Notes under the pieces: generated by a model | Databases searched by the model: none | Told to the model about the DNA's origin: nothing | What the model saw: only the letters and a program-made list of their open reading frames with translations | Position numbers and translations under genes: made by a program | Shown: positions 10,950-35,493 of the stretch, one piece after another | Numbering within the stretch: position 1 is the stretch's first letter | Layout of the letters: the number at the start of each line of letters is the position of its first letter | Assembly (NCBI RefSeq): GCF_014352875.1 | Contig: NZ_CP060695.1 | Location: 124,001 to 188,000 of the forward strand | Direction: 5' to 3' | Source of the DNA: Polaribacter pectinis | Lineage (GTDB): Bacteria > Bacteroidota > Bacteroidia > Flavobacteriales > Flavobacteriaceae | Length of the DNA: 64,000 bases

Positions 10950-11098
10950 CAAACAAGTATAGCCCTGATTGAAGTGGCATCCTTTTTATGCTAAACTTTA
11001 CATTGAATTAGTTACTAATAGGAAACAACTTTTTAATATTAGAATTGCTATTTTATATTCAGCATAAAAAGATATAGCGAAAAGCAGGAAATAGCTAC
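10950..11098 (+). repeat. Dispersed structured element, copy 1
   Basis: Most of the 322-bp gap between the PpiD-like gene and rho. Conserved 5' arm CAAACAAG, TAGCCCTGATTGAA (10950-10974) and 3' arm AAAGCAGGAAATAGCT (11081-11096). CCTG at 10964-10967 can pair with CAGG at 11085-11088. Between them a hairpin ATCCTTTTTATGCT / AGCATAAAAAGATAT encloses an unusually long AT-rich loop of about 70 bases. No open reading frame is present. The transcribed strand is unknown; 'strand' here only marks orientation relative to the other copies. Confidence 0.8.
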
Positions 11099-11104
11099 AA
11101 ATAA

Positions 11105-11133
11105 AAAACCTTCTTGATTTCTCAAAAAGGTTT
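11105..11133 (-). terminator. Intrinsic terminator of rho
   Basis: On the minus strand AAACCTT pairs with AAGGTTT around a loop of about 13 bases, followed by a T run, about 30 bp after the rho stop codon. Confidence 0.6.
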
Positions 11134-11160
11134 AATATATTGTATAAAGTGATAATTTAT

Positions 11161-12849
11161 TTATCCTTTCATGGAGATTAAAAACTCTTCATTATTTTTA
11201 GAGAATTTAATTCTATCATTAATGAACTCCATAGCTTCAATAGGGTTCATGTCTGCTAAATACTTACGTAGAATCCACATTCTTTGCACAGTTTTCTCGT
11301 CTAATAATAAATCATCACGTCTTGTAGAAGATTTAATTAAATCGATTGCAGGATAAATTCTTCTGTTAGAAATATTTCTATCTAATTGAAGTTCCATGTT
11401 ACCAGTTCCTTTAAATTCTTCGAAAATAACTTCGTCCATTTTAGAACCTGTTTCTGTAAGTGCAGTTGCGATAATGGTTAAAGAACCTCCATTTTCTATG
11501 TTTCTAGCTGCACCAAAGAAACGTTTTGGTTTGTGTAATGCATTTGCATCTATACCACCAGAAAGTATTTTACCAGATGCTGGTGCAACTGTATTATATG
11601 CTCTTGCCAAACGTGTAATTGAATCTAAAAGAATAACAACATCGTGTCCACATTCTACCAAACGTTTTGCTTTTTCTAAAACAATGTTGGCAACTCTTAC
11701 GTGTTTATCTGCTGGTTCATCAAAAGTAGATGCTACAACTTCTCCACGAACACTTCTTTGCATGTCTGTAACTTCTTCAGGACGTTCATCAATTAATAAT
11801 ACTATTTGATAAACTTCTGGATGATTGGTGGCAATTGCCTTTGCAACATCCTTTAATAACATGGTTTTACCAGTTTTAGGCTGTGCTACAATCATACCAC
11901 GTTGTCCTTTTCCAATAGGAGAAAATAAATCGATAATTCTTGTTGATAAAGAACTTCCTTTTTCTGCTAAATTGAATTTTTCTTGTGGAAATAAAGGTGT
12001 TAAATGTTCGAAAGAAACCCTATCTCTAACAATGTTAGGATTTAATCCGTTTATTTTTGATACTCTAATTAATGGAAAATATTTTTCACCTTCTTTTGGC
12101 GGACGAACATTTCCTCTAACTGTATCTCCAGTTTTTAAACCAAATAATTTTATTTGAGATTGAGAAACATAAATATCATCTGGCGAAGATAAATAGTTGT
12201 AATCTGATGATCTTAAGAACCCATAACCATCTGGCATCATTTCTAAAACTCCTTCGCTCTCTATAATTCCATCGAACTCAAAATCAGGATCTCTGTACCT
12301 ATTGTTAGATTTATTACCTCTGCTTACAGTAGGTTTTTTATCTCTGTTTTGATTATTGTTTTTCGATTTAGTATTTTGTTGATTAGGGTTTTTATGCTGT
12401 GGCTTGTTTTGTTGATTTGCAGGTTTTTGTTCTTGCTTATCATTCTTAATAGAAGGAGTAGCTTCAGTCTTTACATCATCTTTACTCTCTTTGTTTACCA
12501 CTTTTCTTGGAATAGGTTTTTTTTGAGTTGGTTTAGGATGATTTGGAGCAGTTTTTTTTGGTCTTTCTACTGTTTTTTCTTCTGGAGTTTCTTTTTCTTC
12601 ATTAGCAGTTACTGTAGCTTGTGGAGTTTTAGAAACACGTTTTCTTTTTGGTTTATCTACTGTTTTTGGTTTTTCTTCAGTAGTTGAAGTTGCAACAGCT
12701 GCTTTACTTGGGTTTGCAGCTTGTGTATCTAGTATTTGATAAACTAAATCTAATTTTTTAAGTTGGCTAGTTTTAGAAAGACCAATAGATTTTGCAATTA
12801 CCTGTAAATCAGCAAGGGTTTTTGCTTTTAGTTCAGAGATTTCGAACAT
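11161..12849 (-). CDS. rho: Transcription termination factor Rho with N-terminal disordered insert
   Basis: Hexameric RNA-dependent ATPase that ends transcription. The 562-aa protein is longer than the 419-aa E. coli enzyme because a Lys/Pro/Asn/Gln-rich disordered segment (residues about 45-185) is inserted between the Rho_N helical domain (1-43, [20 protein letters not shown]) and the cold-shock RNA-binding domain (about 195-265). Such inserts are typical of Bacteroidota Rho. The Walker A loop AQPKTGKT is at 322-329 and the Walker B stretch is [16 protein letters not shown]. The Q-loop/R-loop regions look complete. The gene converges on the PpiD-like gene, with a structured repeat in the shared intergenic region. 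Confidence 0.96.
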
Positions 12850-13018
12850 TATTTATATGTTAAGTTAAAATGTAAATCTTTTATATTAAGATTTTATAAT
12901 TTGTTTTGATTGATATAATTGTATATAGTGCTATACAATAACTTTTGTGCGGTTAATTATATAACAAATATATACTTTTTTTTTAAGTTTCAAGTTTTCT
13001 TTTTAAAAAAGAAAGTTT

Positions 13019-13026
13019 TACTTTTG
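13019..13026 (+). promoter_or_regulatory. -7 promoter box of the DUF4293 gene
   Basis: TACTTTTG matches TAnnTTTG and lies 19 bp before the ATG at 13046. No clear -33 TTTG is visible at the usual distance. Confidence 0.5.
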
Positions 13027-13045
13027 TAACCATATATTTTAATTG

Positions 13046-13477
13046 ATGATTCAAAGAATACAAACCATATACTTATTATTAGCTTCAGTTGTTTCTGGAG
13101 GTATGATTTTTGTTTTTGATCTTTGGGATAATCTTAAAGGAAATGTATTTGCTTTGGATTTATTTTTGAGAGAGTCTGCTCTTTTAAAATTAATTCCTAT
13201 ATTGTTCTTACTTTCTGCTATTATATCATTTGTAACCATTTTTTTATTTAACAATAGAAAGTTACAATTTGTAGTAGGGCGTATTGTTATTTTGATCAAT
13301 CTTTTTTTATTAGGATTATTGATTTATGTATCTCTAACTTTACCTGGAGAAGCTACTGTTTCGGAGAAAGGTATTGGGATGTTCTTACCAATTTTGGCTG
13401 TATTGCTTATTGTTTTGGCAAATAAAGCTATTAAAAAGGATGAAGATCTTGTAAAATCTGTAGATAGATTACGATAA
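13046..13477 (+). CDS. DUF4293 membrane protein
   Basis: A 143-aa inner-membrane protein with four hydrophobic segments (about residues 5-25, 49-70, 77-96, 105-125) and a short basic C-terminus. The start MIQRIQTIYLLLA and the whole topology match the Bacteroidota family DUF4293, whose function is unknown. I use the ATG at 13046 rather than the TTG one codon upstream. It is divergent from rho and has its own promoter and terminator, so it is a single-gene transcript. DUF4293 genes next to rho are common in the phylum, an association that is unexplained. Confidence 0.85.
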   Translation: MIQRIQTIYLLLASVVSGGMIFVFDLWDNLKGNVFALDLFLRESALLKLIPILFLLSAIISFVTIFLFNNRKLQFVVGRIVILINLFLLGLLIYVSLTLPGEATVSEKGIGMFLPILAVLLIVLANKAIKKDEDLVKSVDRLR

Positions 13478-13505
13478 AACTAACATCTTAGTTATATTAG
13501 TGCGA

Positions 13506-13537
13506 AGAAAACCGAGAATTTATTTCTCGGTTTTTTA
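13506..13537 (+). terminator. Intrinsic terminator of the DUF4293 gene
   Basis: Stem AAAACCGAGAA / TTCTCGGTTTT with a TTTAT loop, followed by T residues, about 30 bp after the stop. Confidence 0.85.
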
Positions 13538-13632
13538 TTTTTAGACATTATTAGAATAAAAAAAATAAAAAGAATTTTATTTGTAACTTTAACTGTTAAA
13601 ATACAATTTCAGTATTGTTTTTAATCAATTGT

Positions 13633-13715
13633 TTTTCAGTTGTTTATTTTTTTCTTCTCACGGTTTTCCGTGAGAGAACTCACGGAAAACCGTGAGAAGA
13701 AAATTTCACTGAAAA
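13633..13715. promoter_or_regulatory. Nested palindrome upstream of the response-regulator promoter (candidate operator)
   Basis: Perfect 25-bp arms at 13650-13674 and 13679-13703 flank an AGAA loop. Each arm is itself a smaller palindrome, CTCACGG-(4)-CCGTGAG, so the CTCACGG half-site occurs four times in alternating orientation. An outer inverted repeat TTTTCAGT (13633-13640) / ACTGAAAA (13708-13715) encloses everything. It ends 7 bp upstream of the predicted -33 element, so it would lie outside the transcript and could bind a regulator. A terminator role is less likely because DUF4293 already has one. Confidence 0.65.
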
Positions 13716-13721
13716 TGGGGG

Positions 13722-13752
13722 TTGTACATTCTTAATTTGTAACATAAATTTG
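13722..13752 (+). promoter_or_regulatory. Promoter of the LuxR-type response regulator
   Basis: TTG at 13722-13724 and TAAATTTG at 13745-13752 fit the Bacteroidota -33/-7 elements with a 20-bp spacer. The ATG at 13763 is only 10 bp further, giving a very short leader. Confidence 0.6.
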
Positions 13753-13762
13753 TAAGGTAAAA

Positions 13763-14428
13763 ATGAAAGATAAAATATACGTTCACGTAGCTGATGATCA
13801 CAAAATATTAATTGAAGGTATCATCGCTGTAATAAATACTGACAAAGAGATTGAAATTAAAGGATATTCTCTTACTGGCCAAGAAGTAATAGATTGGTTT
13901 AGCCTTAAAGAAAACAAAGCAGATGTTTTAATTTTAGACATTACTATGCCTGTTTTAGATGGTTTTCAAGTATTAAAACATTTTAAGAAAAAAAGAATAG
14001 ATCAAAAAGTTATTATTTTATCAAGTTATGATGATGTTAAAATTGTACAAGAGGTTTTAAATCTTGGTTGCAAAGGATATATTTCAAAAAATAGCGCAGG
14101 AGAACATATAGTAAATGCTATTAAAGCTGTTGCAAGAGGAGAACAATACTTTAGCACAGATATTCAAAGTAGCTTATTACAAACCTTATCAGGTCAAATG
14201 GTTCCTAAAGGAGATATGCCAGATAAATATTTATTAAACAGCTTAACAGAAAGAGAATTAGATGTTTTGAAGCTTGTTACTAAAGAATATAGTACTAGTG
14301 AAATGGCAGATTCTATGAATTTAAGTGTAAACACAGTAGAAACATATAGAAAAAATTTATTAAGAAAATTAAATGTAAAAAATGCAGTAGGATTGGCAAT
14401 GTATGCAGTAAAAAACAATATAGTATAA
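13763..14428 (+). CDS. NarL/FixJ-type response regulator
   Basis: DNA-binding regulator of 221 aa. The receiver domain (about 1-125) has the acidic pair D11/D12 (VADDHK), phospho-acceptor D59 (VLILDITMP) and the conserved lysine in YISKNSAG. The LuxR-type helix-turn-helix is at about 155-215 (LTERELDVLKLV, SVNTVETYRKNLLRKL). The likely partner is the HisKA_3 kinase encoded at 15276, separated by one lipoprotein gene. A large palindrome lies just upstream of the promoter and could be its own operator (inference). Confidence 0.92.
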   Translation: MKDKIYVHVADDHKILIEGIIAVINTDKEIEIKGYSLTGQEVIDWFSLKENKADVLILDITMPVLDGFQVLKHFKKKRIDQKVIILSSYDDVKIVQEVLNLGCKGYISKNSAGEHIVNAIKAVARGEQYFSTDIQSSLLQTLSGQMVPKGDMPDKYLLNSLTERELDVLKLVTKEYSTSEMADSMNLSVNTVETYRKNLLRKLNVKNAVGLAMYAVKNNIV

Positions 14429-14617
14429 TACTTATCCCCAACAAAACTATCCACAAGCTTTGATTTTTTTTTATAAAAATCGTCCCCTAAAAAGCTTTAT
14501 AGTTTACCCCAAGTACAATTGTTGCGTACATTCCTAACCTTACTTTTTTTTAGAAAATAAAAATAGTCCCACCCCCTATTATATTAATCTAAACAAACAT
14601 TATTAAACATTCCCATT

Positions 14618-15274
14618 ATGAAAACTTTCAACTTATTCGCATTAGTAGCTTCAATTACTTTAGTATTTTCTTCATGTTCAACCAATGAAAATCTTTTACC
14701 AGAAGAACAATCTGTAGACTTATTAAAATCTTATTCTATTAAAAGAGATGCAAATGGAGCCTACTCTTTAGATTATAACTTAAATGGAAATGCAAAAACA
14801 GAAAAGGTAGTAGATAATAATATAAATCAATTTTATTTATATTCGTCAGACAGTCAAACAAGTAGGAGAGCTACGCAAGATTTAGTAATAGATGGTACAG
14901 AATTAAAAGTAGGTTTTGTAGATACTAGTTCAGACAAATTACCACAAATAACAATTACTGATGATAATTTAGCATTAGCTAAAAATTCTAATAAGAAATT
15001 AAAAGAGTACAGTATAACAAGTAACCAAGATGGAACTTACAATTTAGATTTTTCTGTAAATAATAAAGTAAGAGTAGATTTTGTATATAATGAAGAGATC
15101 AATACTTACGAAATTCATTTAGAAGAAGGTAAATCTAACGAAACAAGTTTTTCTAGAGTTTTAGAAAAAGCAGATGGACAGCCTTTAAAGTTTGATTTTG
15201 TTAATCATTTAGATAACACAGAAGCTAAAGGTTTATTATCTTTAATAAGAAAGCCACAGGGAGTTATTTTATAA
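14618..15274 (+). CDS. Lipoprotein with two internal repeats, inside a two-component locus
   Basis: A 218-aa protein with a lipoprotein signal (residues 1-19, lipobox FSSC, lipidated C20). Two related segments follow: about 40-80 (SYSIKRDANGAYSLDYNLN) and about 125-165 (EYSITSNQDGTYNLDFSVN), each about 45 residues and probably a beta-rich module. I do not recognise a named family. The stop is one base before the TTG start of the histidine kinase, so the two are co-transcribed and probably coupled. That position makes an envelope sensor or input-modulator role for the kinase plausible, but nothing in the sequence proves it. Confidence 0.7.
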   Translation: MKTFNLFALVASITLVFSSCSTNENLLPEEQSVDLLKSYSIKRDANGAYSLDYNLNGNAKTEKVVDNNINQFYLYSSDSQTSRRATQDLVIDGTELKVGFVDTSSDKLPQITITDDNLALAKNSNKKLKEYSITSNQDGTYNLDFSVNNKVRVDFVYNEEINTYEIHLEEGKSNETSFSRVLEKADGQPLKFDFVNHLDNTEAKGLLSLIRKPQGVIL

Positions 15275-15275
15275 T

Positions 15276-17087
15276 TTGAAAAATATTTTGAGGATAAAAC
15301 TACTAGTTTCAATTATAGTTTTTTTTTGTAATAACACCTTTTACCCCAAAAGCAAAGAAGTTGTATTTAATACAACTTCTTCTTTTGTTTTACAAAATGA
15401 TTCACTTTCACAAAATTATAAATCAGCAAAAGTTTTTTTTGAAAAAGAAGATTATGCTAATGCCTTAAGAGAGGCTCAAAAAATTGTTGAAGTTGGTTCT
15501 TCCTATAGTTCAGAAGAATTAGTTTTAACAAACTATTTAATAGCTAATATCTTTTATTCAACTAAAAGCTATGATAATGCTATAAAATATTATAAAAAAA
15601 CTTTAGATTTAGTGCAGCAATTAAAAGATGTTGAGTTTAAATCTGAAGCAGAAATAAATTTTGATAAAGATTTTATTAAAGCTGAGGCTTATTTAAATTT
15701 TGGAAATAGTTATTATCAACTTTACAACAAAGATTATCTACAAAAGCATAAAGATAGTGCATTGTTTTTCTATGATAAAGTAGATGATTTTTTTAGTTCT
15801 AAGAATAATGTTTTGGAAGTTAAATCTAGAGCGTATTCAAACTCTTCTGTTATTTATCTTAATGATACTTTATTTGATAAGGCTAGAGATTATGCTATGA
15901 AAGCAATTCAAATTCATAGAAATCAAAATAACAAGGTAAATGAAGCAGGTGCTTTGGTTAATTTGTCAAATATTTATTTATCAGAGAATAATTTTAAAAA
16001 AGCAAAAGAAACTTATTATGAAGCTTTAGATTTAATTAGAAACGAAAAATCCAGTAAAGCATTAATTGTGCGAGAAAAAATATATTTTAATCTTGCTTAC
16101 AATTTATATAAACTTAAAGATTATCAAGCCTATTTTTACCAAGAATTATCTTACAATATTAAAGATAGTTTAAGAGAGCAAGAGGTTAGGGGCATTATAG
16201 AAGAGCTAGATGCTCAATATGATTTTAAATCTGCAAAAAAATTACTACTTAAAGAAGAAGAAAACAAAAGATTAAAAGCTCAAAGAACATTTTGGGTTAT
16301 TGGTATTGGTGGTTTTATCATTATTTTGTCTTTATTATACTGGCTAAACTTATATAAGCTTCGTCAAAAGAATTTAGGTTTACAGCTTTCTCAAAATCAG
16401 TTAATTCTTAATCAAAATATAGAGAAAATAAAATCAGAATCTCAAGTAAGAATATTAAACGCTACAATTGATGGTAAAGAGTCCGAAAGAAAAGATATTG
16501 CGGAAACTTTGCATGACAGTGTAAGTGCATTACTATCTTCAGCAAACCTTCATTTACAAGCTACCAGAAGCCAGTTTAAAGGAGATCATCCAATAGAAAT
16601 AGATAAAACTCAAGAAATTATTACAGAAGCTTCTCAAAAAATTAGAGATCTATCACATACATTAGTTTCATCGGTTTTATTAAAATTCGGATTAAAATAT
16701 GCCGTTAAAGATATGGCAGATAAGTATTCTAATTCCCAATTAAAATTTGAAACAGAAGTAGGTAAAGTTAGAAGATATCACCAAAGTTTTGAGATAAAAG
16801 TTTACAATATTATTCAAGAATTCTTAAATAATATATTAAAACACAGTAAAGCAGAAAATGCTACTATTAAGTTAAATGAAGAAAATAGTAAGTTAATTTT
16901 TGTAATTTCTGATGATGGAGTAGGTTTTGATAAAAGTAAAATATCAGATAAAGATGGTCTTGGACTTAACCAAATTGATGCTAGAATACAAGTGATGAAT
17001 GGAAGATTTCATATAAATTCTTCCGTAAATAATGGAACAACCATAGAAGTTGAATTGCCAATTTTAGAAAAACCTAACCACGTTTAG
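15276..17087 (+). CDS. TPR-domain sensor histidine kinase (HisKA_3)
   Basis: Membrane sensor kinase of 603 aa. A signal/anchor segment (about 6-20) leads to an extracytoplasmic TPR-like helical sensor domain (about 45-300). One transmembrane helix (339-357) follows, then a coiled linker, the HisKA_3 dimer domain with phospho-acceptor H413 (DIAETLHDSVSALL), and a HATPase_c domain with N-box QEFLNNILKHSKA (514-526) and G-box DDGVGF (546-551). It starts with TTG at 15276 directly after the lipoprotein stop; no ATG is available at the signal peptide. Partner: the response regulator at 13763. Its last 14 bp overlap the convergent phosphoesterase gene. Confidence 0.9.
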   Translation: MKNILRIKLLVSIIVFFCNNTFYPKSKEVVFNTTSSFVLQNDSLSQNYKSAKVFFEKEDYANALREAQKIVEVGSSYSSEELVLTNYLIANIFYSTKSYDNAIKYYKKTLDLVQQLKDVEFKSEAEINFDKDFIKAEAYLNFGNSYYQLYNKDYLQKHKDSALFFYDKVDDFFSSKNNVLEVKSRAYSNSSVIYLNDTLFDKARDYAMKAIQIHRNQNNKVNEAGALVNLSNIYLSENNFKKAKETYYEALDLIRNEKSSKALIVREKIYFNLAYNLYKLKDYQAYFYQELSYNIKDSLREQEVRGIIEELDAQYDFKSAKKLLLKEEENKRLKAQRTFWVIGIGGFIIILSLLYWLNLYKLRQKNLGLQLSQNQLILNQNIEKIKSESQVRILNATIDGKESERKDIAETLHDSVSALLSSANLHLQATRSQFKGDHPIEIDKTQEIITEASQKIRDLSHTLVSSVLLKFGLKYAVKDMADKYSNSQLKFETEVGKVRRYHQSFEIKVYNIIQEFLNNILKHSKAENATIKLNEENSKLIFVISDDGVGFDKSKISDKDGLGLNQIDARIQVMNGRFHINSSVNNGTTIEVELPILEKPNHV

Positions 17088-17571
17088 CTAGTTCAATAAT
17101 TTCCATGTCTTTTATTTCACCGCTTTCTAATGAAAAGCGCAACATTGTTCTAACTTTATGAAACCCATGGTTTCCTGCTGCTCCAGGATTTAAATGTAAT
17201 AAGTTTAATTTTTTATCATATTGAACCTTTAATATATGAGAATGTCCTGAAATAAATATTTTAGGAGGATTTTTCCTTATATCATCTTTAATTCTTCTGT
17301 AATAATTATTGGGATAACCACCAATATGTGTCATCCAAACAGAAACATTTTCTACAATAAATTTGGCATCTAAAGGAAACTCGGCTCTAGCATCAGTCCC
17401 ATCAATATTTCCCAAAACAGCACGTAAAGGTTTTAGTTTTTTAATGCTATCAGTAACATTTAAATCACCAATATCACCTACATGCCAAACTTCATCTGCT
17501 TGTTTTACAAACTTTAAAATTTGGTTATCAATAAAACTATGTGTATCAGAAAGTAATAGTATTTTCTTCAT
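17074..17571 (-). CDS. YfcE-type metallophosphoesterase
   Basis: Two-metal phosphodiesterase of 165 aa, the usual length of the MJ0936/YfcE family. Metal-ligand motifs appear in order: SDTH (residues 8-11), GDIGD (about 37-41), GNID (about 59-62), a histidine in MTHIGG and the final GHSH motif near residue 110. It hydrolyses small phosphodiesters in vitro in characterised relatives; the physiological substrate is unknown. It converges on the histidine kinase gene and overlaps its 3' end by 14 bp, so antisense interference is possible. It is divergent from truA. Confidence 0.87.
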   Translation of the reverse strand: MKKILLLSDTHSFIDNQILKFVKQADEVWHVGDIGDLNVTDSIKKLKPLRAVLGNIDGTDARAEFPLDAKFIVENVSVWMTHIGGYPNNYYRRIKDDIRKNPPKIFISGHSHILKVQYDKKLNLLHLNPGAAGNHGFHKVRTMLRFSLESGEIKDMEIIELAKRG

Positions 17572-17639
17572 TAAAAATTTGTAAGAAAAGTTTAACGTCT
17601 CTTAAAGACTCAAAAGTAATGATAACAAAATAAATTCCG

Positions 17640-20713: not shown

Positions 20714-21492
20714 TATTGCATTAAATCTTGTTTTATTTTTTCATTGAGCTCTTTATAATCTGAATATAGCTCAAAACCACCATCTTTAATATAAGATATT
20801 TCGCCAGTTTCTTCAGAAACTAATATGCAAACTGCATCAGTTTTTTCTGAAACACCAATAGCTGCTCTGTGTCTTAAGCCAAACCTGGCAGGTATTCTTG
20901 TACTATCAGAAATAGGCAAAACAACTCTAGTTGCTACAATATTATTATCTCTAATAATTAAAGCGCCATCATGTAAAGGGCTATTTTTATAAAAAATACT
21001 TTGTAAAATGGCCTCATTAAGTTGAGCATTCATTTTATCGCCAGTATTTATTAAAAAATCTAAACTGTTTGTTCTCTCAATAACAATTAAAGCTCCTGTT
21101 TTAGTTTTAGACATTTTTTTACATGCTTCTAAAACTATTTCTGTATCCATGTCAGAACCAATTTCTGATTGCAAAAATTTAAGCTGTTTTAAAAAACTTC
21201 GTTTGTTAGTAAAGTTTGTAGTACCGATCATCAATAAGAATTTTCGTATTTCTTGCTGAAAAACAATGATTAACGCAATAACTCCACCAGAAAGTAAATA
21301 GCCTAAAATGCCACTTAACATTTCCATTTTAAGGGCTTGTGTAATTTTCCAGATTAGAAAAATAAATGCAATTCCAATAACAATGTTAATGGCAACAGTT
21401 CCTTTTAAAAGTTTGTAAATATAATAAAGTAGTGTTGCAACCAACAGAATATCTAAAATATCTAACAAAGAAAATTCAATAAAATCGAACAT
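20713..21492 (-). CDS. cdaA: Diadenylate cyclase CdaA-type (c-di-AMP synthesis)
   Basis: Makes the second messenger c-di-AMP from two ATP. The 259-aa membrane protein has three N-terminal hydrophobic segments (about 10-27, 32-50, 58-80) and then the DAC domain. The nucleotide-binding motifs are DGA at 175-177 (LHDGALII) and RHR at 207-209 (GLRHRAAIG). Length and order match CdaA/DacA (TIGR00159). In many Flavobacteriaceae this gene lies directly next to folP; here a broken exbD gene lies between them. It ends at a bidirectional terminator. Confidence 0.94.
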   Translation of the reverse strand: MFDFIEFSLLDILDILLVATLLYYIYKLLKGTVAINIVIGIAFIFLIWKITQALKMEMLSGILGYLLSGGVIALIIVFQQEIRKFLLMIGTTNFTNKRSFLKQLKFLQSEIGSDMDTEIVLEACKKMSKTKTGALIVIERTNSLDFLINTGDKMNAQLNEAILQSIFYKNSPLHDGALIIRDNNIVATRVVLPISDSTRIPARFGLRHRAAIGVSEKTDAVCILVSEETGEISYIKDGGFELYSDYKELNEKIKQDLMQ

Positions 21493-22150: not shown

Positions 22151-22292
22151 AATGTTCGTTTTAAAAGTTAATAATTAGATTTCTTTTCGAACTATTTCGA
22201 AAAGGATTATTAAAGCTTAATTAGGTAGATTTTTGGCGTTAACATTTATTTAACAAAATTGATGCCATAAAATTTAGATTGCAGAAAGCTGG

Positions 22293-22386
22293 CAAACAAG
22301 TTTAGCCCAGATTGAACGGATTGTTTGAGCTCTTTTTTATTCTTTTTTGAATAAAAAAAGCGAGTAGTGAAAGCTGGAAATAGCTC
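22293..22386 (+). repeat. Dispersed structured element, copy 2
   Basis: 5' arm CAAACAAGTTTAGCCCAGAT starting at 22293 and 3' arm AAAGCTGGAAATAGCT ending near 22385. CCAG (22307-22310) can pair with CTGG (22374-22377). The internal hairpin is CTCTTTTTTATTC / GAATAAAAAAAG. The 3' arm touches the folP stop codon (22387), so on the minus strand the element starts directly at the end of folP. The rest of the gap to the exbD start shows nothing clear. Confidence 0.8.
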
Positions 22387-23211
22387 CTAAAAAGAAATCT
22401 GATTTACAATTTTTACAGCTTCAACAGCTTCTTTAACATCATGAACACGTAAAATATTTGCGCCATTTAAAAGTGCAATTGTATTTGCAGAAGTGGTGGC
22501 ATTTAGAGCTTCTTGTGCAGAAATATCTAATGTTTTATACAACATAGATTTACGTGAAATTCCGGCTAAAATTGGTGCATCTAAACTTTTAAAAAGGTCT
22601 AAATTCTTCAAAATTTCAAAATTATGAGCAACAGTTTTCCCAAAACCAAAACCAACATCTATAATAATATCGTTCAGTTTTAGTTGGTGTAATTTATGAA
22701 TTTGTTCTGCAAAAAAAGAAATAATTTCTTGGGTTACATCTTTATAAACTGGGTTTTGTTGCATGTTTTGAGGAGTACCCAACATGTGCATTAAAATATA
22801 TGGAACCTGAAGTTTTGCTACAGTTTCAAACATTTTATCATCCATTTTTCCACCAGAAATATCGTTTACAATTGCAACACCATTTTCTACAGCTTCTTTG
22901 GCAATTTTACTTCTAAAAGTATCTACAGAAATAACAATTTCAGGAAAATTCTTAACCAATAAATTAATTACAGGAACAATTCTTTGCAATTCTTGTTCTT
23001 CGGAAATATGAGTGGCTCCAGGCCTGGAAGAGTAGGCACCAACATCAATAAAAGTTGCACCTTCCAAAAGCATTTTTTCTGTTTGATTTAGAATTTCGAC
23101 TTCATTTTTATATTTACCTCCATCAAAAAAAGAATCTGGTGTAATATTTAAAATTCCCATCACTTTTGGTGATGATAAATGGACTAAAGTTCCCTTGCAA
23201 TTTATGGTCAT
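22387..23211 (-). CDS. folP: Dihydropteroate synthase
   Basis: Condenses p-aminobenzoate with the pterin diphosphate in folate synthesis; the sulfonamide target. The 274-aa TIM-barrel protein has the family motifs in order: MGILNITPDSFFDGGKY (residues about 18-34), the loop with GAYSSRPGA, VSVDTFRS, NDISGG, DVGFGFGK and the C-terminal RVHDV. Its ATG overlaps the stop of the upstream LOG-family gene by one base (TAATG type), so the two are translationally coupled. A copy of the dispersed structured element begins immediately at its stop codon. Confidence 0.95.
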   Translation of the reverse strand: MTINCKGTLVHLSSPKVMGILNITPDSFFDGGKYKNEVEILNQTEKMLLEGATFIDVGAYSSRPGATHISEEQELQRIVPVINLLVKNFPEIVISVDTFRSKIAKEAVENGVAIVNDISGGKMDDKMFETVAKLQVPYILMHMLGTPQNMQQNPVYKDVTQEIISFFAEQIHKLHQLKLNDIIIDVGFGFGKTVAHNFEILKNLDLFKSLDAPILAGISRKSMLYKTLDISAQEALNATTSANTIALLNGANILRVHDVKEAVEAVKIVNQISF

Positions 23212-27546: not shown

Positions 27547-27605
27547 TATATAGAGTTTGAAAACAAAACAAAATATATAAAATTAAGTTGTGTCTTTTAA
27601 TTGTT

Positions 27606-27689
27606 TGTCATTTCGAATGCAATGCAATGAAGTTGAGAAATCTTTTTACTTAATTTTATTTGAGATTTCTCCATTAAGTCGAAATGACA
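27606..27689. repeat. Inverted-repeat element, TGTCATTTCGA family (copy A)
   Basis: Ends TGTCATTTCGA (27606-27616) and TCGAAATGACA (27679-27689) are perfect 11-bp reverse complements. Inside, GAGAAATCT pairs with AGATTTCTC. The middle of the left arm contains an ATGCA-ATGCA direct repeat. Similar hairpins are scattered in Bacteroidota genomes; a relative lies at 41523-41589. Confidence 0.75.
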
Positions 27690-27724
27690 TTTAGTATTTA
27701 ATTTAACTTTGGGGAAAATAAAAA

Positions 27725-27814
27725 AGCTACCAAACAAGATTAGCCCTGATTGAAACGACATCCTTTTTTTGTTTTTCTCAAAAAAAGATATAGTGGAAAG
27801 CAGGAAATAGCTAC
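27725..27814 (+). repeat. Dispersed structured element, copy 3
   Basis: 5' arm CAAACAAGATTAGCCCTGAT (from 27731) and 3' arm GGAAAGCAGGAAATAGCTAC. CCTG/CAGG are complementary and the apical hairpin is ATCCTTTTTTTG / CAAAAAAAGAT. Flanking GCTAC repeats mark both ends. The 3' arm ends 5 bp from the stop codon of the minus-strand DUF1684 gene. Confidence 0.8.
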
Positions 27815-28971: not shown

Positions 28972-29019
28972 AAATAATGATTATTGAAAACCAAAAATAC
29001 AACTTTCAATTATTTTATG

Positions 29020-29180
29020 TAGATTTGATGCATCAATAAACCAGAAATGAAAAATGTCATTACATATATTACCAAGCAATCGTGTGTTTCACGAAAAAGT
29101 CGGTATGTTTATATGTTTTGATGATATCTATATAAAATCAAACAGTTATAAAAAGTCCGACTTAACAGTCGGACTTTTTA
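29020..29180 (+). ncRNA. Candidate short transcript with promoter box, 24-codon ORF and terminator
   Basis: TAGATTTG (29020-29027) fits the -7 consensus, although no -33 element is clear. About 120 bp further a perfect terminator hairpin (29149-29180) has no annotated gene before it. Between them only a 24-codon reading frame is present (29047-29121, MKNVITYITKQ...). This could be a small regulatory RNA or a tiny peptide mRNA. Sequence shows promoter, ORF and terminator only; expression is unproven. Confidence 0.4.
29149..29180 (+). terminator. Orphan intrinsic terminator
   Basis: Stem AAAAAGTCCGACT / AGTCGGACTTTTT around TAAC with T-rich 3' side. The only upstream + strand unit is the candidate short transcript at 29020. 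Confidence 0.8.
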
Positions 29181-29230
29181 TTTTTACATAAATTCTGAAT
29201 TTCGATTCAGCATTAATAAACCAACCAACC

Positions 29231-30448
29231 ATGAACACTTTATTTAAAAACTACATTAATACTTTTAGAGGACTCTCTAAAGAAGTTTGGTGGCTTTCGT
29301 TAATAACTTTAATTAACAGAGCAGGAACAATGGTAATTCCGTTCTTGTCTTTATATCTAACAAAAAGTCTTAATTTTTCACTTTCTGATGTGGGTTGGAT
29401 TATGTCTTTTTTTGGAATTGGTTCTTTGGTCGGAACTTGGTTAGGAGGCAAATTGACAGATAAAATAGGGTATTATAAAGTGATGTTATTTAGTTTATTT
29501 CTTACCGGAATTTTCTTTGTTTTATTGCAGTTTGCAACTACTTTTAATGAATTTTGTCTAGGTATTTTTATAGTAATGTTGGTGGCAGATGCTTTTAGGC
29601 CAGCTATGTTTGTGGCTTTAAATGCGTACAGTAAACCAGAGAATAAAACACGTTCTGTAACTTTAATTCGTTTGGCAATTAATTTAGGTTTTTCTGCTGG
29701 ACCTGCAATTGGTGGAATTATAATTGTAAGTATTGGTTACCAAGGTTTGTTTTGGGTAGATGGAATTACATGTGCTTTAGCAGGAATTTTATTATTGAAT
29801 GTTTTGCATCCTAAAAAAGCAAGAATTTTAGATAAGGTTAAAGTAGAGAACCCAGTTTCTGCTTACAAAGACAAAGCTTTTTGGGTGTTTTTTATAGCGA
29901 TGTTTATTTTCGGATTTACCTTTTTACAATATTTCTCTACAATGCCTTTATACTATAAAGACGTTAGAATGTTGTCTGAATTAGAGATAGGTTTACTTAT
30001 GGGATTCAATGGGTTTTTCATTTTTGTTTTTGAAATGCCATTAATTAAATGGTTAGAAAATCCAAAAAATTCGAAAATTAAATTAGTTGCAATTGGATTA
30101 TTTTTGGTCGCAATTAGCTTTACAATTTTAAATGCAACTTCTTGGTTCGGAATTTTATTAATAGGAATGTTGTTAATGACTGTAGGAGAAATGATTGCTT
30201 TTCCGTTTTCTAACGCTTTTGCAGTAGAAAGAGCAAAGAAAGGAAACCAAGGAGAATATATGGCTTTGTATGCGATTGCGTTTTCATTATCGCATATTTT
30301 TAGTCATAATTCTGGAATGCAAATGGTAGATAAATTTGGTTTTGAATTTACTTTGAATGTATTAACAGTTTTAGCACTTATTGGTGTTTTTATTCTGTTA
30401 TTTCTAGTTACGATTTTAAAGAAGGAAAAAGAAAATCAATCGAAATAA
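29231..30448 (+). CDS. MFS transporter
   Basis: A 405-aa integral membrane protein with about twelve hydrophobic segments, the length of a 12-helix major facilitator. Motif A lies in the loop between helices 2 and 3 (GTWLGGKLTDKIGYYKVM, about residues 66-83). The second half carries a weaker repeat near LEIGLLMGFNGF. Such transporters often export small molecules or drugs, and the substrate is unknown. Its last 13 bp overlap the convergent DMP19-family gene. Confidence 0.87.
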   Translation: MNTLFKNYINTFRGLSKEVWWLSLITLINRAGTMVIPFLSLYLTKSLNFSLSDVGWIMSFFGIGSLVGTWLGGKLTDKIGYYKVMLFSLFLTGIFFVLLQFATTFNEFCLGIFIVMLVADAFRPAMFVALNAYSKPENKTRSVTLIRLAINLGFSAGPAIGGIIIVSIGYQGLFWVDGITCALAGILLLNVLHPKKARILDKVKVENPVSAYKDKAFWVFFIAMFIFGFTFLQYFSTMPLYYKDVRMLSELEIGLLMGFNGFFIFVFEMPLIKWLENPKNSKIKLVAIGLFLVAISFTILNATSWFGILLIGMLLMTVGEMIAFPFSNAFAVERAKKGNQGEYMALYAIAFSLSHIFSHNSGMQMVDKFGFEFTLNVLTVLALIGVFILLFLVTILKKEKENQSK

Positions 30449-30897
30449 GAAATATTTTCTCGAACATAATCGATTGTTAGTTGAACAATATCATCTTCAT
30501 ATTTTTCAAATTGAAGATCTAAATCGTCCCATAAATCGATATTAGATTCCTTTTGCATGAGAATTCCTTGTCGGATTTTTATGTTTTTTGGAACAGGAAT
30601 TTCTGGGAATAAGAAAATGGCTTTCGTTAAAATATCTACGGTTTTTTCTGCTTTTATAGCTAAATACGCTTGAAAAATTTCGTGTGTAAATTGCCCTGAA
30701 GAACTAAAAAAGAACTGTATAAAACCACCTTCAGTTACATTTTGCTCTAAAATATCGATATAGATAAAGGTTTTTTCAAACTCGTTTAGATTTTCGAAAT
30801 TATCTCTTTCAGGAATTTTCTTCCCAATGATTTCTCCAATTCGAGTAATTTTTTCTGAATCGTCATTTAAAAGTAAAGCAATTTCTGTTGAAGTCAT
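30436..30897 (-). CDS. DMP19/DUF4375-family protein
   Basis: A 153-aa soluble acidic protein. The central EQNVTEGGFIQFFFSSSGQF with NGGF-type motif is the signature of the DMP19-like family (DUF4375). In Neisseria DMP19 is a DNA-mimic protein that blocks a repressor; most bacterial relatives are uncharacterised, so that role is only a possibility here. The 3' end overlaps the MFS gene by 13 bp. It starts 1 bp after the VOC gene's stop on the same strand, so it is co-transcribed with it. Confidence 0.75.
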   Translation of the reverse strand: MTSTEIALLLNDDSEKITRIGEIIGKKIPERDNFENLNEFEKTFIYIDILEQNVTEGGFIQFFFSSSGQFTHEIFQAYLAIKAEKTVDILTKAIFLFPEIPVPKNIKIRQGILMQKESNIDLWDDLDLQFEKYEDDIVQLTIDYVRENISYFD

Positions 30898-30898
30898 T

Positions 30899-31966
30899 TT
30901 AGTTGAATTTCTTTACACGTTTTAAATTCATTCCTTTAATCATCCAATTTGGCAATGGTTTTTTAGGATTTCTATTTTTTAGGTTGATATTTATTCCCAA
31001 CTTTTTAATCAACGGTACTTTATGAGTTTCTATAAATTCGATTAAAGTTCCATCAAAATCTTCAATATAACCCCAATGTCCATTTGCTTCTCCCATATCA
31101 AAAGATTCGGAACTAATTACTTGAAAAGGAACTCCTTTTTGTTCACATTCGTTTTTTAGCGTTTCCATTTTTCTAATATCAAAACATAAGTGAATGTAGC
31201 CTAAATCTCCCCAATATCTATCTTCAAAAATTTTATTTGGAGTATTTTCTAAAGATTGAATCAATTCAATTTGGCTATCTCCAAACAATTTTGCAAAACC
31301 ACCAACTCTTTTTTCTGAATGAGAAAGCAGGATTCTTCTAAACTTCCTATCACCATTATTAAGGGTTTTTAAATCTTCAAAAACCCCAGTTTTATCAAAC
31401 TCAATTTTGTCATAACCTAAAATATCTTTGTATAATTTTAGGGAAGTATCAATATTAGAAACTCCAATGGATGTTCCATAAATGCCTCCAACATCAAGTT
31501 TTTTATTATCGTAAAAAGAATTAAATTCTTTAATTTTTAGAATATTATCAAACGGGTCTTTTAAATAAAAACTCTTACCATTATCTGGTTCTGTAGAAAT
31601 TTTAGAAATAATATTTTCATTTAATTGCTTCAGCCTATCAAACGTTTTAGAAATGTTTTTTGTTTTAATTATCGGAAACTGAATTCCTAAATCGCCCAAT
31701 TTAAAATTGTTTTTAGGTTTAGAAGGTTTTCTATTGGTGTATTGCCAAATTTCATAACCACCACCACCTTGCATGTTTAAAGCCAACAAAGCTCTTTTTT
31801 TTCGAGATTTTCCACCCATATATTTTGCCATATACGTAGCTTCGTTGTTATCATCAAAAATTAAAGCATCTGCACCTAAAGTTTTTGCATACCATTTAAA
31901 AGCTTTGTCTGCATTTTCAACACCAATTCCTATTTGTTGAATTCCGTAAATTAGTTTTTCTGTCAT
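30899..31966 (-). CDS. VOC (glyoxalase/bleomycin-resistance) family protein, two domains
   Basis: A 355-aa protein with two vicinal-oxygen-chelate modules. The first covers about residues 5-130 (IQQIGIGVENADKAFKWYAKTLGAD). The second covers about 155-315 (YGTSIGVSNIDTSLKLYKDILGYDKIEFD) and ends in IEDFDGTLIEFIETHKVP. Candidate metal ligands are histidines and glutamates at the domain edges, such as YIHLCFD and LIEFIE. These enzymes include glyoxalases and dioxygenases; the substrate is unknown. It follows the DUF4174 gene and precedes the DMP19-like gene closely, suggesting one minus-strand transcript. Confidence 0.82.
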   Translation of the reverse strand: MTEKLIYGIQQIGIGVENADKAFKWYAKTLGADALIFDDNNEATYMAKYMGGKSRKKRALLALNMQGGGGYEIWQYTNRKPSKPKNNFKLGDLGIQFPIIKTKNISKTFDRLKQLNENIISKISTEPDNGKSFYLKDPFDNILKIKEFNSFYDNKKLDVGGIYGTSIGVSNIDTSLKLYKDILGYDKIEFDKTGVFEDLKTLNNGDRKFRRILLSHSEKRVGGFAKLFGDSQIELIQSLENTPNKIFEDRYWGDLGYIHLCFDIRKMETLKNECEQKGVPFQVISSESFDMGEANGHWGYIEDFDGTLIEFIETHKVPLIKKLGININLKNRNPKKPLPNWMIKGMNLKRVKKFN

Positions 31967-31977
31967 TTATAAATACC

Positions 31978-32397
31978 CTAATTTTTATTTTTCAGCTCTT
32001 TTTTTCTCATGGGCATTCCATCAATTATTGCAAATAATTTTTCTGATGTTAAAACTGAATCTTGCTCCAATTTTACATCTCCGTCTAAACCAATTAAAAG
32101 TACTTTAAAAGGCTTTAAATTATGTACGTATTTTTTATACAAAGAGTTTGATTTGTGCCAATTTTCTTTAAAATTGAAGTTATAAACGTCTTTAGTAAAT
32201 CGATATACAAGTAGTTTTCTGTCTAAAAGTTCTTTTTTGTGTTCTTGAATAATTAAGGTTTGGTTTTTAAATTCAGAACTATTTACATTATCAGTATAAA
32301 CCAATAGAACTCTATTTTTCCATTGATGGATTTTAATGTTTTGTCCAAATACAATCATACCAAAAAACAAGAAAAATGAAAATAATTTGAACTTCAT
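31978..32397 (-). CDS. DUF4174 exported protein
   Basis: A 139-aa protein with a Sec signal peptide (residues 1-18, ending VFGQ) and a small alpha/beta domain: KNRVLLVYTDNVNSSEF at the start, FKVLLIGLDGDVKLEQDSVL in the middle and the closing FAIIDGMPMRKKEL. This is the DUF4174 pattern, a thioredoxin-like fold family without a known activity and here without CxxC. It follows the S15 hydrolase gene by 21 bp and precedes the VOC gene by 11 bp. Confidence 0.82.
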   Translation of the reverse strand: MKFKLFSFFLFFGMIVFGQNIKIHQWKNRVLLVYTDNVNSSEFKNQTLIIQEHKKELLDRKLLVYRFTKDVYNFNFKENWHKSNSLYKKYVHNLKPFKVLLIGLDGDVKLEQDSVLTSEKLFAIIDGMPMRKKELKNKN

Positions 32398-32418
32398 ATT
32401 ATAATAATTCTAGACAAT

Positions 32419-34344
32419 TTATTTTAATACAGAAAATTCAATTGTAGAATCTGTAAAAACTGTATGTGTCTGTGTTTTAAAATCTTTTTCGTCTGCTTTG
32501 TAAATATTATCTACATACGTTTGCGGATTTAAATCGATTAAAGGAAACCAAGTACTTTGTACTTGAATTTGTAGTTTATGACCTTTTTTAAACGTATGAA
32601 AAACATCTTGTAACTTTATATTTACATCCGTTTTTTTATTTGGAATAAAAGGTTCAGGATTCTCAAAACTATTTCTAAAACGTCCACGTAAAACTTCACT
32701 TCTAACCATTAAATGATAGTTACTCATTTTTAAATGATCTTGTAATTTATCATTTTCTTTATCAGTTACAATTTCTGAAGGATGCACATCAATCACCTTC
32801 ACAATCCAATCTGCTGCAGTTCCTGTAGTTGCTACTTTTAGTTTTGCCAAAATATCTCCAGCCAATGTGTAATCTTCCGTTAAAATATCCGTTTCAAAAA
32901 CCAAAACATCTGGTCTTCTTGCCGCAAAACGTTGGTCATCTGTCATGTATTTTCTTGGTGTAAAAACCGTTTTAATATCTTCAGAATAAGGAACAGGACG
33001 TTTTACATCACTAATAAAATCGATTTTTTTAGTGAATTTTCCATTATGAGTCTTTTTTAATTCTTGGTCAGAATTTAAGAAAAATGATTCTTTCTCAACA
33101 TTTTCTGGAGGCCAAGCATCGTAACTTTTCCATTCTTTCTTACCAGAATCAAAAACATACGCTTCAGGCAAACCAGAATTTTTATCTCCATTTCCTTTTA
33201 AGAAATGATTAAAGAATTTGGTTTCAATATTTTTTTGAAAATTTAAAGAAATTGAATCTCCAAAATAATAATTACCAACATAATTTTTCACAGTATTTCT
33301 TGCCCATTTTCCATGATCCCAAGGCCCAAAAACAAGTGTATTATAATTGTCTTTTCCGTTTTTTTCAATTCCTTTATAGGTTTCTAAAGGTCCATATAAA
33401 TCTTCTGCATCAAACCAACCACCAACAATCATAGTTGCTACTGTAGATGGAACTTTGTCCATATGTTGTATAATTCCTTTACTTTTCCAAACCGAATCGT
33501 AATTTGGGTGTTCTGTAATTTCTTTCCAGAAAAAATCGTCGATTCTATCTTTATTTTCAGCAGTTTTTACATCCAATTTATCATATTGAAAATATTCATT
33601 CAAGTTTTTTAAAGGGCCTTTATCCAAGAAAAACTGATATTGATCTTGCGAATTCATCTTCGGAAAAGAGTACCAAGCAGAATCTGTTGGTGTGTCTTTA
33701 TACGTTCCAAAAAGCGAAATCGCTCTAAAATAACTTAATAAAAATGCTCCATTATGATGAAAATCATCAAAGAAAAAATCGCCAATACAAGCTTGTGGAG
33801 AAGCCGCTTTTAATGCAGGATGTGCATCTATTGTAGAAACGGTTGCATAATGTCCAGGATAAGAAATTCCCCAAGTTCCAACATTTCCGTTGTTGTTTTC
33901 TACGTTTTTTACCAACCAATCAATCGTGTCATATGTATCAGAAACTTCATCAGATTCGTTTTCTTTTTTATTCGGAATATTAGCACGCATGTTATCATAC
34001 ACACCTTCACTCATCCAACGTCCACGCACATCTTGGTACACAACAATATTTCCTTCTTTCATTAAATGAACATTTGGGCCAATTTTGGTTTTCATTTTTC
34101 CTTCTCCATAAGGCGCAGAACTATAAGGCGTTCTCTGCATTAAAATCGGGTATTTTTTAGAAGTATCTTTAGGAGAATAAATGGTTGTGTAGAGCTTTGT
34201 ACCATCTCTCATTGTAATATTTACCTCTTTTTTAGTGTAATTATCGGTAACATACGTATCTTTTTTATCTTCTTTTTCCTTTGTAGGATTACAAGAACTG
34301 AAAAGAAATAGACTAAAAATGGTTAAAAGGAGAACTTTTTTCAT
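32419..34344 (-). CDS. CocE/NonD-family S15 hydrolase, lipoprotein
   Basis: Exported serine hydrolase of 641 aa with lipoprotein signal (lipobox FSSC, cysteine at 18). The alpha/beta-hydrolase domain begins near residue 40 and has the nucleophile elbow GISYPG with S161. The acid is probably in the GGWFDAEDLYG region, and the histidine in FGPWDHGKW. The C-terminal jelly-roll domain (about 420-641) has VFETDILTEDYTLAGDI and the closing QVQSTWFPLIDLNPQ typical of X-Pro dipeptidyl-peptidase C domains. Substrate class is esters, amides or peptides, not resolvable here. First gene of a minus-strand run. Confidence 0.9.
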   Translation of the reverse strand: MKKVLLLTIFSLFLFSSCNPTKEKEDKKDTYVTDNYTKKEVNITMRDGTKLYTTIYSPKDTSKKYPILMQRTPYSSAPYGEGKMKTKIGPNVHLMKEGNIVVYQDVRGRWMSEGVYDNMRANIPNKKENESDEVSDTYDTIDWLVKNVENNNGNVGTWGISYPGHYATVSTIDAHPALKAASPQACIGDFFFDDFHHNGAFLLSYFRAISLFGTYKDTPTDSAWYSFPKMNSQDQYQFFLDKGPLKNLNEYFQYDKLDVKTAENKDRIDDFFWKEITEHPNYDSVWKSKGIIQHMDKVPSTVATMIVGGWFDAEDLYGPLETYKGIEKNGKDNYNTLVFGPWDHGKWARNTVKNYVGNYYFGDSISLNFQKNIETKFFNHFLKGNGDKNSGLPEAYVFDSGKKEWKSYDAWPPENVEKESFFLNSDQELKKTHNGKFTKKIDFISDVKRPVPYSEDIKTVFTPRKYMTDDQRFAARRPDVLVFETDILTEDYTLAGDILAKLKVATTGTAADWIVKVIDVHPSEIVTDKENDKLQDHLKMSNYHLMVRSEVLRGRFRNSFENPEPFIPNKKTDVNIKLQDVFHTFKKGHKLQIQVQSTWFPLIDLNPQTYVDNIYKADEKDFKTQTHTVFTDSTIEFSVLK

Positions 34345-34431
34345 GTTAAGTTAAATTAGTTTGGCATAAATCTACGAAACTAAAAAGAGTTGTGTAAAAT
34401 TCTTTTGTTAAAATGATTTCTATTTTTATTA

Positions 34432-34520
34432 GAAGCTATTTCCAGCTTTACGTTATATCTTTTTGTGAAAAACAAAAAGGATGCCACTTCAATCTGGGCT
34501 AAACCTGTTTGCAAACTTTA
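34432..34520 (-). repeat. Dispersed structured element, copy 4 (inverted)
   Basis: Reverse orientation relative to copies 1-3 and 5. On the minus strand the 5' arm reads GCAAACAGGTTTAGCCCAG and the 3' arm AAAGCTGGAAATAGCTT. CCAG pairs with CTGG as in copies 2 and 5, while the apical hairpin (GGCATCCTTTTTG / CAAAAAGATAT) is of the copy 1/3 type. It lies between divergent genes (S15 hydrolase and DJ-1 family). This hybrid combination shows that the two variable parts evolve independently. Confidence 0.8.
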
Positions 34521-34611
34521 AAGAATTAGAATAATTACGGTATTTTAAAAGAATTTATAAGCTAAAAATATCTAAAACTCAATGATTTTAGATATTTAAA
34601 AAAGGAAACAC

Positions 34612-34619
34612 TAATTTTG
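34612..34619 (+). promoter_or_regulatory. -7 promoter box of the DJ-1-family gene
   Basis: TAATTTTG matches TAnnTTTG, 18 bp before the ATG at 34638. Confidence 0.5.
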
Positions 34620-34637
34620 TGAAAAACATTTTAGAAG

Positions 34638-35369
34638 ATGAATAAATTCCTTTACATAATAGGTTTAATGCTGTTTATTGGTTGTGTTTCCAAAGTTGAA
34701 GACACAAAAAGCACAACAGTAGAAAAAACGTTTCCGAAATTAGAAAAAGACAGATACAATGTTGCTTTCCTAATTATGGATGGGACTTTTAATACAGAAC
34801 TAACTGCACCATTTGATATTTTTCAGCATACTATTTTTAGAAAGAATATTAAAGCGATGAATGTTTTTACTGTAGCAAATACAGACAAACCAATTACTAC
34901 TTTCGAAGGAATGCGAATTCTACCTGACTTTAATTATTTAAAAGATTCGTTACCAAAAATCGATATTTTAGTAGTTCCATCTGCAGAGCATCATTTAGAT
35001 TCCGATTTAGAAGACAAAGCTATGATTGACTTTGTACAAAAAGTAGATAAAGAAGCAATTTACGTTACTTCTCATTGCGATGGCGCATTTGTTTTGGCAA
35101 AAGCAGGGTTATTAGAAGACAAAGTTTCCACAACTTTTCCTTCTGACATCGATAAAATGAGAGAAATGTTCCCAACTTTAGATGTTAGAAAAGACGTTTT
35201 ATTTGTCCACGATGGAAAATATATAACGTCAGCTGGTGGTGCAAAATCGTTTGAAGCGGCATTGTATTTATGTGAGTTTTTATACGGTAAAGAAGTAACA
35301 AAATCGTTGGCTGGTGGTTTGGTTATAGATTGGGAATTAGAGAATGTTCCTCATTTGATTGTTGAGTAA
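34638..35369 (+). CDS. DJ-1/PfpI-family lipoprotein
   Basis: A 243-aa protein with lipoprotein signal (lipobox FIGC, C16) and a DJ-1/PfpI domain (about 40-230). The nucleophile-elbow cysteine is C147 in TSHCDGAFVLAKAG, with an acidic partner region around AELTAPFD-like sequence (residues 54-61). The closing ITSAGGAKSFEAALYLCEFLYG matches AraC-like sensor domains of the superfamily. Activity (glyoxalase, amidase or sensor) is not predictable. Export as a lipoprotein is unusual for the family, since most members are cytoplasmic. Confidence 0.82.
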   Translation: MNKFLYIIGLMLFIGCVSKVEDTKSTTVEKTFPKLEKDRYNVAFLIMDGTFNTELTAPFDIFQHTIFRKNIKAMNVFTVANTDKPITTFEGMRILPDFNYLKDSLPKIDILVVPSAEHHLDSDLEDKAMIDFVQKVDKEAIYVTSHCDGAFVLAKAGLLEDKVSTTFPSDIDKMREMFPTLDVRKDVLFVHDGKYITSAGGAKSFEAALYLCEFLYGKEVTKSLAGGLVIDWELENVPHLIVE

Positions 35370-35388
35370 TTACTGATTTGGGAATATT

Positions 35389-35493
35389 GCTATAAGTTAG
35401 CAAACAAGTTTAGCCCAGATTGAACGGTTTGTTTGAGCTCTTTTTATTCTTTTTTGAATAAAAAAAGCGAGTAGTGAAAGCTGGAAATAGCTT
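35389..35493 (+). repeat. Dispersed structured element, copy 5
   Basis: Near-identical to copy 2. 5' arm AGCAAACAAGTTTAGCCCAG (from 35399), 3' arm AAAGCTGGAAATAGCTT, apical hairpin around TTTTTATTC / GAATAAAAAAAG. CCAG/CTGG are complementary, and outer GCTAT / ATAGC can also pair. Lies between the DJ-1-family gene and ygiQ, both + strand. Confidence 0.8.

Follow-up and report, generated by a model that had tools for sequence, protein, structure and literature searches.

The stretch of DNA analyzed here (hereafter designated the window; 64,000 nucleotides, bases 124001–188000 of the 3.47-Mb single-contig genome of Polaribacter pectinis, designated G000) contains five copies of Flavo-1 (Rfam family RF01705), which is probably a dispersed, non-coding, intergenic DNA repeat of the REP (repetitive extragenic palindromic)/ERIC (enterobacterial repetitive intergenic consensus) class, one that takes on new cores through recombination among its copies. 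In related species, many copies were found at the same genomic site and with the same end type but with different cores, and at two places a single copy of one species had, on its two sides, flanks that belong to two separate copies in the other. The family itself is known already; what this analysis adds is its construction from modules, the finding that cores are exchanged while the ends stay fixed, and a balance of evidence that tips towards a DNA repeat and away from an RNA gene.

Scanned against Rfam by cmscan, all five window copies matched RF01705 (E values of 3e-14 to 6e-4), three of them above the family cut-off of 42 bits, and Flavo-1, which an earlier note on this DNA had named as a candidate, was therefore the correct one. 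The copies were also scored with two covariance models built in this analysis from core A (R1) and from core B (R2), the alternative inner parts described below. Copy 1 (10941–11098, plus strand; core A, arm CCTG/CAGG) scored 63.0 bits with RF01705 (at 10957–11095) and 51.9 bits with R1; it lies between convergent genes, and its apical part is about 60 nt longer. Copy 2 (22284–22387, plus; core B, arm CCAG/CTGG; match at 22300–22384) scored 39.5 bits with RF01705, below the cut-off (E 6e-5), and on the right it directly adjoins the stop codon of the open reading frame (ORF) 22387–23211 (minus; Pterin_bind). Copy 3 (27722–27814, plus; core A, CCTG/CAGG; 73.3 bits with RF01705, at 27738–27811, and 75.8 bits with R1) lies between convergent genes, ECH_1 on the left and DUF1684 on the right, and copy 4 (34432–34520, minus; core A, CCAG/CTGG; 73.0 bits with RF01705, at 34435–34504, and 70.5 bits with R1) between the divergent genes Peptidase_S15 and DJ-1/PfpI. 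Copy 5 (35393–35494, plus; core B, CCAG/CTGG; match at 35408–35491), between the DJ-1/PfpI gene and a radical-SAM gene, again stayed below the cut-off with 36.0 bits (E 6e-4). With R2, copies 2 and 5 scored 97.8 and 93.0 bits, values that are not independent, since the training set of R2 includes copies of these two sites. They fall under the RF01705 cut-off because core B fits the Rfam model poorly, and they were assigned to Flavo-1 via the common ends and via the sites that hold core A in relatives. All five carry end type I.

Reading of the sequence bore out what the note had described, namely the five positions with copy 4 inverted, the common 5′ and 3′ arms, and the division into CCTG/CAGG (copies 1 and 3) and CCAG/CTGG (copies 2, 4, and 5); all copies are intergenic, none lying within an ORF, copy 2 touching a stop codon. 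Copies 1, 3, and 4 have in common GGCATCC or GACATCC...GATATA, and copies 2 and 5 CGGnTTGTTTGAGCTC...GCGAGTAGTG. The 5′ arm TAGCCCNGATTGAA occurs 30 times genome-wide (16 and 14 on the two strands) vs 0 for the reversed pattern, which, like the cmscan E values, excludes a chance resemblance. A weak sixth R2 match (62523–62587, minus; E 0.015) resembled, by eye, an unrelated AT-rich hairpin. The gene beside copy 1 (11161–12849, minus) encodes transcription terminator Rho, as judged from Pfam domains.

The modular anatomy was derived from a catalogue of 66 copies in G000 and 59 in its sister species (G020), setting aside 5 copies whose end type was unassigned and 1 whose core type was. The unit is a long imperfect hairpin of nested modules, comprising outer ends (I, II, or III), a core (A or B), and a tip, the last being variable and, by eye, sometimes common to A and B cores. 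End I reads CTAAAAGYTnGCAAACAAGTTTAGCCC ... GGAAATAGCTTC, and ends II and III start with GCGTTA and finish with AACGCCC, end II carrying an extra small hairpin (CCTTTTAGG, CCTGAAAGG, and similar; by eye). Core A is GATTGAA-NN-GGCATCC ... GATATA-NN-GGAAAGC, and core B is GATTGAACGGTTTGTTTGAGCTC ... GCGAGTAGTGAAAGC. The right flank of the element is A-rich. Copies in which core B is joined to ends II/III occur at five sites and are absent there from the RF01705 matches. Among the end-I copies of both species, omitting two with other arms, CCT and CCA arms number 16 and 8 with core A and 22 and 19 with core B (Fisher p 0.43); arm type and core type are thus unassociated, so that copy 4, correctly reported to combine one arm type (CCAG/CTGG) with the other hairpin type (core A), represents an ordinary state. 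In addition, the end-I segment CAAACAAG can pair with TTTGTTTG of core B to give a three-hairpin alternative fold (e.g., window 35393–35494), which energy folding preferred in copies 2 and 5; ends II and III are without CAAACAAG.

Core exchange was analyzed by pairing the copies of the two sister species through their flanks. Thirty-six copies had their best left and right flank matches at a single partner, and stretches taken at predicted places gave 11 additional two-flank sites, with the element on both sides in 7 and vacant in 4 (by eye); in the stretches examined, 22 of the 66 G000 copies and 20 of the 59 G020 copies were without a two-flank partner. The core type differs in 8 of the 43 paired sites (3/36 plus 5/7), which is no unbiased rate and to that extent counts against the reading given above, because the RF01705 starting hits favour core A; one further pair, beyond these 8, has an untypable core. 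No pair with assigned end types (by eye in the 7) differs in end type, and orientation agrees as well in the pairs for which both were assigned. In the cleanest switch, 3106717 (core A) vs 2206244 (core B), the near flanks are about 99% identical up to the arms and the core alone is replaced, while among the other switches the near flanks of 2640783/2783599 are poorly aligned and the partner of 1103344 is merely B-like. In pairs with the same core, element identity (0.94) exceeds near-flank identity (0.85). Of the 36 anchored pairs, 24 have the ortholog as best match, and in the other 12 another copy equals or surpasses it. Both cores were likewise seen among relatives at each of the five window sites, c1–c5, with end I wherever legible (by eye): G028 for c1; G020, G033, and G036 for c2; G008 and G043 for c3; G012 for c4; and G012 and the named loci L069, L072, and L086 for c5.

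Exchange extends to the flanks at two places. The G020 copy at 3203760 has the left flank of the G000 copy at 21489 and the right flank of that at 2073309, the two being inverted copies, and the G000 copy at 613989 unites the flanks of two direct G020 copies 22.7 kb apart, where the nearest ~100 nt on the left are unaligned, so that the junction is placed to that precision. Presumably, cores would be exchanged by ectopic gene conversion between copies, with the conserved arms serving as homology. The differences at one site might instead reflect separate insertions into a hotspot or into an older copy, which we consider unlikely. Such insertions would agree with the nesting of other repeats at fixed places (an insert of ~27 nt within the 3′ arm and, in the tip, a REP-like hairpin), with the two copies at site c3 in G003 and G050, and with near flanks that differ somewhat in the stretches of 4 of the 8 core switches; however, ends and flanks are continuous in 3106717/2206244, where only the core differs, and end type and orientation agree in pairs where both are assigned.

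Nesting was also observed in its own right. In several Flavo-1 copies (L380, L381, L383, L384, and L393), part of the 3′ arm gives way, always at one position, to a ~27-nt segment resembling CTTTCGACTTCGCTCAAGATAAACTCC, and a REP-like hairpin sometimes occupies the Flavo-1 tip in other genomes. REP-like palindromes (GTCATTTCGA...; CTGTCAGTTCGAGTG...) stand in the same intergenic regions as Flavo-1 at window 27600–27700, L150/L151, and L086, and at site c2 of G028 an IS110-family transposase gene (L191:11155–12168, minus; PF01548, PF02371) lies, by eye, inside a REP-like palindrome adjoining the Flavo-1 copy. The two c3 copies of L171 (G003) and L174 (G050) occupy one convergent intergenic region, the right (3′) end of each adjoining the stop codon of the gene next to it.

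The compensatory changes reported for the window hold genome-wide. Among 62 distinct A cores (alignment A1, 62 of 67, five with long tips being omitted), 99.1% of cells were standard pairs vs 85.2% in shuffled alignments, both sides changed in 8 of 14 pairs vs 5.5 (1 of 500 shuffles), and the covariation score was 0.408 vs 0.135 (sd 0.010; 0 of 500), with slid versions at most 0.112; for 35 B cores (alignment A2, omitting B cores of at least 95 nt), the score was 0.166 vs 0.041 (0 of 500). Five copies outside the core patterns were set aside, and these counts are inflated by related rows and by a structure derived from the same sequences. The 2-bp stem of core A occurs as AC/GT (30), AT/AT (22), GT/AC (11), GT/GC (9), GC/GC (3), and AT/TT (2) in the two species, orthologs included. 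Moreover, internal loops rich in purines (e.g., GAA facing GGA) persist and are not turned into perfect pairs. Selection on a folded form, as the note had argued, is the likeliest reading of these kept loops together with the covariation; it is weakened by the single-copy folding energies given below and by cores that appear to be copied between sites, since such copying spreads paired changes without new selection. The fold may persist because copies, when newly made or overwritten, go through a single-stranded hairpin stage on which a putative cellular activity acts.

As for the genomic setting, none of the 66 G000 copies lies within an ORF (simple ORF caller), and in 53 of them the gene on the right is oriented towards the element (p 7e-7), left-hand genes being unbiased (30 vs 36). 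The right-gene bias recurs in 25 of 35 copies of four other genomes of the genus, many of these copies being orthologous pairs and 1 of the 35 being flagged inside an ORF. We suggest that the element is tolerated, and in this genus may be favoured, just past the stop codon of the right-hand gene. A general orientation rule was rejected, for the bias holds in G000 and the four genus genomes but not in two other genera. On the bottom strand, the 10 bases immediately preceding the element contain on average 7.5 T vs 3.8–4.3 in controls (115 of 125 copies, those with a recognised right end), and 22% of these flanks fold at −8 kcal/mol or below vs 10–13% of controls; insertion into terminator T-tracts was nevertheless rejected, since the vacant c3 sites are by eye without a T-tract, which implies that the tract may belong to the element.

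At an E value of 0.001, at least 63 RF01705 matches were found in G000, at least 42 of them above the cut-off (150 of 986 candidates scored), and R1 and R2 gave at least 40 and at least 50 matches, at least 2 of them common (150 candidates scored per model); from R1 and R2 together, G000 has about 88 Flavo-1 copies. Within the genus, 49 of 58 genomes have an RF01705 match, with 0 to at least 67 per genome, and at the level of the order Flavo-1 was found in 40 of 148 genomes and 13 of 62 genera. With R1 there were 6 matches, and with R2 there were 5, in a set of 80 named flavobacterial loci around the DJ-1/PfpI gene, the strong ones being in four Polaribacter loci (L068, L069, L072, and L086), Lacinutrix (L128), and Ulvibacter (L107).

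Several observations weigh against a DNA repeat with exchanging cores. The number of further pair types was no higher in A cores than in shuffled ones (16 vs 16.2), and was 6 vs 5.1 in B cores (176 of 500). Four copies folded singly were weakly stable on the element strand (z −0.84, −0.93, −0.40, and −2.51) and more markedly so on the opposite strand (z −2.14, −1.45, −1.14, and −4.22). In end types II and III, the matching end beside a swapped core measures about 15–27 nt, short for ordinary homologous recombination. The right-gene bias fails in the two other genera (8 of 19 copies, a count that omits a twentieth stretch, L451, cut at the element). Synteny breaks are not clearly enriched for copies as compared with intergenic controls, broken or one-sided synteny occurring in 4/9 vs 17/96 (G037), 3/7 vs 22/92 (G039), 0/9 vs 4/94 (G036), and 0/10 vs 5/93 (G033), and enrichment at rearrangement breakpoints was accordingly rejected as unclear in these four genomes. 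Finally, the comparison yielded no empty site that was clean and had exact ends, the borders being unclean at the 4 of 11 additional two-flank sites that were vacant by eye, so that transposition and its enzyme are not demonstrated; sites were shared, diverged, or vacant without clean borders, and vacant c3 sites occurred only in more distant genomes.

It is rather improbable that Flavo-1 is an RNA, acting either as small trans-acting RNAs or as RNA elements in 3′ untranslated regions (UTRs). The family has been tabled as a probable RNA that is not cis-regulatory (Weinberg et al. 2010, PMC2864571), and RF01705 bears the Rfam label 'Gene; sRNA'. The A cores covary with 10 G.U vs 3 A.C cells, and the element strand is the more stable one in 92 of 125 copies with RNA parameters (91 of 125 with DNA parameters). 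A 3′ UTR role could also bring the right-hand gene to face the element, as it does in G000, and in the four singly folded copies folding gives the more significant values for the strand that would, with this bias, form part of the mRNA; the G.U count and the mean energies, however, favour the other strand, and the bias is absent from the two other genera. An RNA gene would also have to vary from absence to dozens of copies within one genus. In the Flavobacterium psychrophilum transcriptome (PMC9723704), several Flavo-1 matches are reported to coincide with 5′ transcribed regions, but matches lie indistinctly sense or antisense of transcribed regions and many lie outside them, which is unsupportive of a non-coding RNA gene. 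Of the two alternatives that the earlier note had left side by side, RNA or mobile DNA, the evidence thus favours a DNA repeat over an RNA gene, although the precise empty sites expected of a miniature inverted-repeat transposable element were not found. For such a repeat, an independent RNA function would not be needed.

A more specific proposal, which we regard as doubtful, is that a dedicated recombination activity, acting on single-strand hairpins and independent of Y1 transposase, swaps the core as a cassette while the ends remain permanent, the repeat spreading mainly by overwriting its own kind and not by entering new sites. Quasipalindrome template switching, in which one arm is copied from the other, makes paired changes without selection, and the arms and tips are near-palindromic; yet it is quite improbable as the source of the compensatory changes, as the purine-rich loops are kept, not corrected, and the 2-bp stem exists in four Watson-Crick forms.

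Least probable, and very much so, is an element of the REP/REPIN type moved by a Y1 transposase (RAYT, REP-associated tyrosine transposase, or TnpA-REP), for although Flavo-1 copies are high-copy extragenic hairpins, as REPs are, the latter standing mainly downstream of coding regions (PMC3733652), the transposase domain PF01797 occurs in 31 of 58 genus genomes, and some copies, read on the opposite strand, close with GTAG (right end AGCTAC), PF01797 has no match in G000, is missing from 5 of the 13 genus genomes in which RF01705 has 40 or more matches (G000 included), and is present in 5 of the 9 zero-copy genomes (some of them incomplete), while other copies have GAAG, GGAG, or GGGCGTT at that end and GTAG is no common tag. 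RAYT was accordingly rejected as the present mover.

Other origins were likewise rejected. Carriage by phages or plasmids found no support in the searches made: the exact 5′ arm occurs in 41 viral contigs, but these gave no R1 or R2 match, one core-A copy had no plasmid match, and one core-B copy had no phage match. An origin like that of short interspersed nuclear elements, prompted by the A-rich 3′ flank, was discarded on the absence of 5′-truncated end-I copies; over ~1.7 Mb of partly overlapping stretches there are no one-armed end-I copies, as 40 are paired and the 9 unpaired arm matches represent 6 diverged whole copies and 3 chance matches. In these stretches, and for end I only, no unpaired arm fitted as the distant end of an autonomous parent. 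A likeness of the GCGTTAG ends to integron attC sites was dropped, attC core sites presumably facing the opposite way.

Among known systems, the BOX elements of pneumococcus are likewise modular repeats with exchangeable inner parts; they belong to a different phylum. The window copies have the same arms, core A, and fold as RF01705 (Weinberg et al. 2010, PMC2864571), but core B scores low with that model, and the copies behave here as exchanging DNA repeats. ERIC/IRU (intergenic repeat unit) sequences resemble Flavo-1 by description, as ~100-nt intergenic repeats with a long hairpin, many copies, and a mover not demonstrated; they are tabulated with target duplication and TA ends (PMC2229807), neither of which is established for Flavo-1, whose modular ends and cores are additional. 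REP/REPIN elements with RAYT are likewise extragenic hairpins mainly downstream of genes (PMC3733652), from which Flavo-1 differs in being longer and modular, without PF01797 in G000 and without a common GTAG/CGTC tag (by eye). Among open-access papers judged by title and abstract, with subscription journals not covered, none was found that treats Flavo-1 as an exchanging DNA repeat.

In a review, Flavo-1 is listed among the most abundant bacterial small-RNA families (PMC9029176), so that many annotations may call a DNA repeat a small RNA; strong covariation alone, as this case warns, is no proof of an RNA gene. With its fixed ends and exchanging, covarying cores, Flavo-1 is a natural record of how small hairpin repeats evolve, and it offers a system for testing gene conversion where homology is very short.

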